Shown piece after piece: positions 26,487-27,037 of a DNA stretch of 64,000 bases. Origin of the DNA: an uncultured Sphingomonas sp. Lineage in GTDB: Bacteria > Pseudomonadota > Alphaproteobacteria > Sphingomonadales > Sphingomonadaceae. Numbering within the stretch: position 1 is the first letter of the stretch; each line of letters begins with the position of its first letter. A program made the translations under genes and the position numbers. Location of the stretch: positions 124,001 through 188,000 of the forward strand of contig NZ_CAJYTI010000001.1 of assembly GCF_913777625.1 (NCBI RefSeq), read 5' to 3'. The notes beneath the pieces are model-generated. The model made no database searches. It worked only from the letters and a program-made list of their open reading frames with translations, and was not told where the DNA came from.

Positions 26487-26536
26487 AATCCTCCCCCGCC
26501 AGGGGGAGGTGCTGCCGTAGGCGGCGGAGGGGCAGG
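26487..26536. repeat. GC-rich repeat unit, left of DUF559 gene
   Basis: AATCCTCCCCCGCCAGGGGGAGGTGCTGCCGTAGGCGGCGGAGGGGCAGG; inverted copy at 26923-26972, direct diverged copy at 26985-27037. Confidence 0.85.
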
Positions 26537-26542
26537 AAAGCG

Positions 26543-26974
26543 ATGCGCTTGGGAGGTTCCAATCATAGCCGCCCCACCGCCAAGCGTCTCCGTGAGAAAA
26601 TGACGCCACCAGAAATTGCCCTCTGGCTGGCGCTCCGCAAGAACGACGCGGGTCTCCGATTCCGCAAGCAACACCCGGCGGGCGCCTACATCCTCGACTT
26701 CTACTGCGCCCCGGCAATGCTCGCGATCGAAGTCGACGGCCAAGCGCATGCCTTCGGGGACCGGCCAGAGCGGGATGCCACCCGCGACGCGTGGCTGAAA
26801 GCCCAAGGCGTCCGGGTCCTCCGCTATACGGCCGCGGACGTACTGCGCCACACCGACAGCGCCGTCCGCCAGATCCTCGCGATCGCGATCGACCGAAGGG
26901 CCAAACTACAAGCCGCTCGCCGACCTCCCCCTCCGTCGCCTTCGGCGCCACCTCCCCCTGGCGGGGAAGGATAG
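26543..26974 (+). CDS. DUF559 domain endonuclease (Vsr/restriction-like fold)
   Basis: MTPPEIALWLALRKNDAGLRFRKQHPAGAYILDFYCAPAMLAIEVDGQAH. Confidence 0.9.
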   Translation: MRLGGSNHSRPTAKRLREKMTPPEIALWLALRKNDAGLRFRKQHPAGAYILDFYCAPAMLAIEVDGQAHAFGDRPERDATRDAWLKAQGVRVLRYTAADVLRHTDSAVRQILAIAIDRRAKLQAARRPPPPSPSAPPPPGGEG

Positions 26975-27037
26975 AGGGGGCAACAATCCTCCCCAGCCAG
27001 GGGGAGGTGGCCCGCGCAGCGGGTCGGAGGGGGAGGT
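26923..27037. repeat. two further copies of the GC-rich repeat unit, right of DUF559 gene (inner copy inverted and encoding the DUF559 C-terminus)
   Basis: ACCTCCCCCTCCGTCGCCTTCGGCGCCACCTCCCCCTGGCGGGGAAGGAT and AATCCTCCCCAGCCAGGGGGAGGTGGCCCGCGCAGCGGGTCGGAGGGGGAGGT. Confidence 0.85.

Follow-up and report, generated by a model that had tools for sequence, protein, structure and literature searches.

The segment from position 26488 to 27036 of the window, which is the whole 64,000-nucleotide stretch of DNA from an uncultured Sphingomonas sp. that was analyzed, is best explained as one copy of a compact unit, consisting of a free-standing DUF559 gene with long terminal inverted repeats that could form hairpins or, by analogy with other repeats, triplexes. 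With a probability of approximately 0.6, this unit represents a system that resembles REPIN-RAYT but is based on an unrelated nuclease, which would recognize the ends of the palindromic repeats (REPs) and, through breakage and repair, spread both the unit and short REP dimers. DUF559 proteins form a large family whose function is not known, and one of them is encoded by E. coli K-12. A search of an open library, outside which preprints and most subscription journals fall, found no paper that connects DUF559 with REPs, REPINs, palindromes, or boxC elements.

A DUF559 Gene Bounded by Inverted Repeats

Three repeats of approximately 50 bp, one of them inverted, were found as described in the first-pass annotation of this DNA. 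The 5' terminal repeat of the unit (REP1, 26488-26536, forward strand) consists of a hairpin, CCTCCCCC-GCCA-GGGGGAGG, a variable second hairpin, and a G-rich third tract (GGAGGGG). The 3' terminal repeat (REP2, 26923-26972, reverse strand) has the opposite orientation, and an extra direct copy (REP3, 26986-27036, forward strand) is located outside the unit. The arms of the REP1/REP2 pair extend to 64 nt, with 81% complementarity, and REP2 and REP3 have 26 nt in common at 92%. The core pattern of the repeat matched three times in the window, versus 0.00 matches expected from shuffled sequences.

The only gene between REP1 and REP2 (26543-26974, forward strand) encodes a protein of 143 amino acids, whose proposed identity as a DUF559 nuclease was upheld by a Pfam match (PF04480, E 8.7e-27). 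Its ATG is located 6 nt past REP1, the end of which occupies the position expected for a ribosome-binding site. Translation also confirmed that the end of the protein is made from the inner repeat: REP2 supplies the final residues and the stop codon, and the C-terminal tail RRPPPPSPSAPPPPGGEG with its stop (26918-26974, forward strand) is coded almost wholly within this repeat. According to the first-pass annotation and their translations, the neighbors of the unit presumably encode an acyl-CoA dehydrogenase and, in the opposite orientation, a threonine synthase.

The Encoded Nuclease

An EDxHD/Vsr-like fold of the DUF559 protein was indicated by the Pfam match, by an alignment whose invariant columns include E24, D52, E63, D65, H69, and D78, and by an AlphaFold2 model (mean pLDDT 82) with Foldseek matches to a family member from Neisseria (3hrl) and to the catalytic domain of I-Bth0305I (3r3p; E 2.7e-05; TM-score 0.77, normalized to target length). 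I-Bth0305I was also matched by sequence profile (E 0.0027), and the protein is thus predicted to have the fold of the I-Bth0305I catalytic domain. Vsr was more distant (1vsr, TM-score 0.43). Initial assignment of the protein to the Vsr/restriction-fold nucleases therefore held for the broad fold, but its model has more in common with the homing endonuclease I-Bth0305I than with Vsr.

DUF559 was earlier placed in the EDxHD family (PMC9403480). DNA damage was reported for VsrA, a DUF559 protein of Caulobacter, when the methyltransferase ScmA was missing (PMC12907096), which provides independent evidence that DUF559 proteins can damage DNA in vivo, although members of the family may have other roles.

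Repeat Dimers Throughout the Genome

The core pattern of this repeat family (family A) had 40 matches with at most 2 mismatches in the 4.17-Mb genome, versus 1 for a reversed control. Thirty of the 37 matches outside the window formed 15 pairs, all (15/15) in (+,-) orientation and with a spacing of 99-106 bp. These dimers share their orientation with the REP pair that frames the gene and represent the REPIN arrangement. REPs identified by pattern search of this genome were intergenic. Repeat counts for the genome were based on pattern searches and one 400-kb sample; this sample, which does not contain a DUF559 gene, holds dimers of family A as well as of family D, a second REP family with dimers and a DUF559 gene of its own, which it surrounds at locus L034. 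Among 115 REP copies from the loci examined, 72 different variable segments occurred. A stem of 4 bp or more can form in 69 of these, versus 19 of 72 after shuffling. This result is in line with the original observation that structure rather than sequence is conserved in the small hairpin.

The genome contains five DUF559 genes in total, all of which (5/5) are framed by REPs, each with its own REP variant. Relative to the first domain in the alignment, the other four DUF559 domains showed 35-41% identity. The terminal inverted repeats of a classical insertion sequence are present in the unit (REP1/REP2), but several near-identical copies in one genome, another hallmark of such elements, were not found among the five genes.

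In family D, the dimer interior, AGCGCAGCAGGCGAGTCCGG, is similar to the sequence that directly follows the REP in the unit (5' subterminal, AGCGAAGCGGGCGATCCGG), which suggests, at the level of sequence, a MITE-like origin of the dimers. Resemblance between dimer interior and unit was weaker in family A, where it was suggestive in two genomes (G000 and G091) and absent in a third (G099). Derivation of REPINs from the unit by exact internal deletion thus found support in family D, where the case is clear, and to some extent in family A, but not in G099.

A longer composite repeat, with a family-B-like hairpin, several more stems, and a final CCTCCCCCGTCAAGGGGGAGGA hairpin, was observed twice in the genome (C10; L126, approximately 1540-1830, and L144, approximately 1560-1840). 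With respect to other functions of the locus, PADLOC gave only weak matches for a defense system, and transport of the unit as a plasmid passenger was rejected because its DNA did not match any plasmid.

Genomic Contexts and Alleles Without the Unit

Twenty-five family-A orthologs occurred in approximately 14 different flank contexts. Throughout, the layout of the unit was kept: a REP, 6 nt, the ATG, the gene, and an inverted REP over the stop codon, with the distance of 6 nt from REP to ATG found in most of the 25. Pyrimidine tracts faced outward in 79 of 84 repeat arms. REP and protein sequences co-varied (Mantel r 0.31, p <= 0.0005; 76 non-redundant units), also when only units of the genus were included (Mantel r 0.56, p <= 0.0005; 27 units). 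Like the other p-values of this analysis, these were not corrected for shared ancestry.

At the fadE-thrC site, Sphingomonas sp. TDK1 (G002; L066/L145) carries an intact DUF559 gene and a tandem copy with a large internal deletion, each bounded by REPs. An allele without the unit, which had been proposed as a check on mobility, was found at the same site in another genome (G096), where the gene is absent and a single chimeric REP remains. The left half of this REP matches REP1 of strain ATCC 31555 and its right half matches REP3 of that strain. Its sequence fits a loss of the unit by recombination between direct REPs, for which REP1 and REP3 in the window would be the corresponding partners, leaving a solo REP as in G096; an original insertion of the unit next to a REP might also account for it. 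In two further genomes (G054 and G023), neither a REP nor DUF559 was present downstream of fadE.

No target-site duplication was apparent at the fadE-thrC, hrpB-mrcB, and alx-sstT sites, whose flanks have strongly diverged, and neither recent transposition nor a fresh insertion was seen.

Co-occurrence of Repeats and Nucleases in Sphingomonas

In a sample of 121 Sphingomonas genomes, DUF559 genes were detected in 113, with up to 10 per genome. They are small and sporadic, and most genomes keep several intact ones. Inverted repeats between the two flanks scored above all shuffles at 32 of 33 Sphingomonas DUF559 loci; a score of 40 was reached by only 1 of 279 genes in the 400-kb sample.

At least two family-A REPs were present in all 23 genomes with a family-A ortholog (roughly 60% identity or more), versus 17 of the 98 others (p 3e-14, not corrected for shared ancestry), with up to 216 copies per genome. 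Conversely, none of the eight genomes that lack any DUF559 gene (0/8) contained family-A REPs, in agreement with the proposed link between repeat and nuclease. Exceptions to the co-occurrence included two genomes with decayed units between family-A-like REPs (G098 and G018) and two whose nucleases were associated with a sister REP type (G015 and G069). Three others (G092, G093, and G110) have kept 33-190 family-A REPs, with no family-A nuclease found, which makes them useful for measuring decay of REPs after loss of the nuclease. Apart from these three, distribution of family A over the 121 genomes and the Mantel correlations showed that each REP family is paired with its own enzyme. The nuclease of each family is nearly always single-copy.

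Resemblance to Known Mobile Elements

In REPIN-RAYT systems, inverted palindromes flank an enzyme gene, most repeats lie at other genomic sites in the form of inverted dimers, and a genome can harbor multiple families that are each served by a dedicated enzyme (PMC3116915, PMC3733652). The DUF559 unit similarly has its enzyme gene between inverted REPs, and inverted REP dimers occur elsewhere in the genome (the 15 dimers and those of family D). However, the RAYT enzyme is an HUH/Y1 single-strand transposase, whereas that of the unit is an EDxHD/PD-(D/E)XK nuclease, and the GTAG tag of REPIN-RAYT repeats is absent from the Sphingomonas REP ends. The unit is therefore not a member of the RAYT group, since its enzyme belongs to PF04480 rather than PF01797.

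Like the MITEs of classical insertion sequences, REP dimers are short repeats that share their ends with a unit that carries a gene. Unlike those elements, the DUF559 unit contains no known transposase or recombinase, and a target-site duplication was not seen. To our knowledge, no strand-transfer activity has been described for a lone nuclease. Homing endonucleases of the I-Bth0305I type are borne by introns or inteins, whereas the DUF559 gene is free-standing; in contrast to EDxHD homing endonucleases, its product has just a short tail beside the catalytic domain, and long inverted repeats enclose the unit. Vsr and the Caulobacter DUF559 protein VsrA have the broad fold in common with the protein encoded in the window, with a weaker structural likeness in the case of Vsr.

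Proposed Spread of Unit and Dimers by the Nuclease

The initial interpretation of the locus as a nuclease-plus-palindrome unit analogous to RAYT/REP was supported by the analysis of flanks, co-occurrence, alleles without the unit, and absence of RAYT. The unit architecture, its association and co-inheritance with the repeats, the variety of genomic contexts, and the allelic variation were observed directly, whereas recognition, cutting, and dispersal are inferred steps. In the mechanism that we infer, the nuclease would recognize the end of a REP and cut or nick the DNA there. Subsequent repair of the break, or recombination, would copy or move the REP-bounded DNA, which could be the whole unit or, far more often, a short dimer of two inverted REPs without a gene (REPIN). 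The dimers would thus form a non-autonomous, MITE-like population of the nuclease, as REPINs do for the RAYT transposase, and the nuclease would maintain or spread unit and dimers through breakage and repair. The main weaknesses of this reading are that neither a target-site duplication nor a fresh insertion was seen and that in three genomes REPs are present but the nuclease was not found. If it is correct, a lifestyle like that of REPINs, whose population of tiny repeats is served by a domesticated or selfish enzyme, evolved independently on the basis of an unrelated nuclease.

The location of the REPs directly upstream of the ATG and over the stop codon would also suit a function in the host. 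DUF559 might be a structure-specific nuclease that serves the cell by resolving triplexes or hairpins of the repeats during replication, with the flanking REPs acting as regulatory sites (ribosome-binding end, terminator, or autoregulation). Regulation of the gene by REPs would keep gene and repeats together without any dispersal. Maintenance of several intact DUF559 genes in most genomes is consistent with such a role, as are reports that repeats of this kind form triplexes in vitro and are linked to rearranged loci (PMC4666352). We nevertheless consider this explanation unlikely, because it does not account for whole units in different genomic contexts, for genome-wide dimers of the same orientation, or for several families that each have their own repeat.

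Action of DUF559 as a free-standing homing endonuclease, which would cut alleles with no unit or a single REP and be copied into them by repair, with dimers as by-products or relics, appears improbable. In its favor, the closest characterized fold, according to the model, is that of the I-Bth0305I catalytic domain, the family has been assigned to the EDxHD group (PMC9403480), and some alleles carry the unit whereas others do not. However, orthologs were found in differing genomic contexts, and homing to one site would not generate as many as 216 REPs per genome.

Palindromes Beside DUF559 Genes in Other Bacteria

Whether repeats flank DUF559 genes more often than other genes had been named as a check, and this was the case in 40 loci from Proteobacteria beyond Sphingomonas (further genera, families, and classes), which tend to be the best-scoring DUF559 matches: inverted-repeat scores of at least 35 were reached by 25 of the 40, versus 2 of 465 control genes (simple open-reading-frame calls from the same loci). 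One-sided cases, which this threshold missed, were counted later as palindromes within 300 bp. A pyrimidine-purine hairpin within 300 bp on either side was found at 37 of the 40 DUF559 loci, versus 24 of 454 controls, and both flanks contained a palindrome at 18 of 40, versus 1 of 454. Two of the remaining three loci have an inverted repeat (L227 and L230), and in the third a palindrome was identified by eye (L246).

These controls make it very improbable that DUF559 genes, which are indeed small and sporadic, and REPs, which are intergenic, merely gather in the same variable regions or that another enzyme such as RAYT moves the genes, a scenario that is also at odds with the fixed spacing and orientation of the repeats and with their family-specific co-occurrence and co-variation with the nuclease. 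RAYT as the mover was ruled out, since Y1_Tnp (PF01797) had no match in this genome and is absent from 109 of the 121 Sphingomonas genomes, with 12 containing it.

In a census of 399 proteobacterial genomes, three or more copies of the palindrome CCCTCTCCC-N2-9-GGGAGAGGG were found in 71 of the 111 genomes that have a strong DUF559 match, versus 15 of 288 without one (odds ratio 32, not corrected for shared ancestry). Beyond the Proteobacteria, palindromes were present on both sides of plasmid-borne DUF559 genes in three of three Deinococcus species and in four of four cases on cyanobacterial plasmids; the flanks of the one DUF559 gene examined from Thermoactinomyces (Bacillota) did not contain such palindromes. 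These results confirmed that pairing of DUF559 with palindromes is general, extending over Proteobacteria (E. coli among them), Deinococcus, and cyanobacteria.

On plasmids of Synechocystis and Picosynechococcus (L272, L273, and L274), palindrome-flanked DUF559 genes adjoin genes for DUF1156 or BREX PglX methyltransferases. Around the DUF559 gene of a Pseudanabaena plasmid (L275), palindromes with AATT loops (CCCCCCAATTCTGGGGGG) form arrays on both sides.

The E. coli Homolog and boxC/PIT/Triplex Repeats

Holder et al. (2015) described 23 triplex-motif sites in E. coli K-12, near which mobility functions were never found (PMC4666352), and approximately 100 palindromes of this type occur in Enterobacter 638 (PMC2869309). 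Like the Sphingomonas REPs, these boxC/PIT/TMECO repeats consist of a pyrimidine arm that a loop joins to a complementary purine arm, followed by another purine tract of mirror-like sequence, and they are intergenic and partly organized as inverted dimers; they have been described without any associated gene (PMC4666352). The sequences of the Sphingomonas REPs contain all four of these elements but differ from boxC by an extra variable hairpin that precedes the third tract, and the REP in the window does not match the exact E. coli consensus, CCCTCNCCC-N3-6-GGGNGAGGG-N3-GGGNGAGGG.

The ycjD gene of E. coli K-12 is annotated as DUF559. TMECO no. 9 is located approximately 170 bp from the end of this gene, and a second such palindrome overlaps the ycjD end. 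Together with recurrence of the pairing in other bacteria, these observations suggest that a widespread class of bacterial repeats has its hitherto missing partner in the DUF559 nuclease, and the link makes both the function of the family and the origin of the repeats testable in a laboratory strain. A wider proposal, which we advance tentatively and at slightly less than even odds, is that EDxHD-type nucleases with triplex-forming ends constitute a new class of mobile elements, which disperse themselves and their dimers in Proteobacteria, Deinococcota, and Cyanobacteria and gave rise to the boxC/PIT/TM repeats.

Repeat presence was polymorphic in E. coli. Alleles at hrpB-mrcB contained a full dimer, a solo hairpin, or nothing, and those at alx-sstT a dimer or a monomer. 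Judged from the alleles, the changes from dimer to monomer look like simple deletion between repeats, for which the nuclease would not be needed. In the fabI-ycjD region of E. coli K-12 (L254, 1160-1460), the DNA between TMECO no. 9 and ycjD includes a second, truncated copy of the 3' end region of this gene, and E. coli F8111-1SC3 (L258) has a single copy.

Of 5,426 E. coli genomes, 3,363 contained at least 80% of the ycjD region. In the ycjD-less strains examined, its place was occupied by another set of genes, and these strains did not provide clean empty sites. A gene for a TetR regulator and an efflux gene were found beside fabI instead (L255, L256, and L257).
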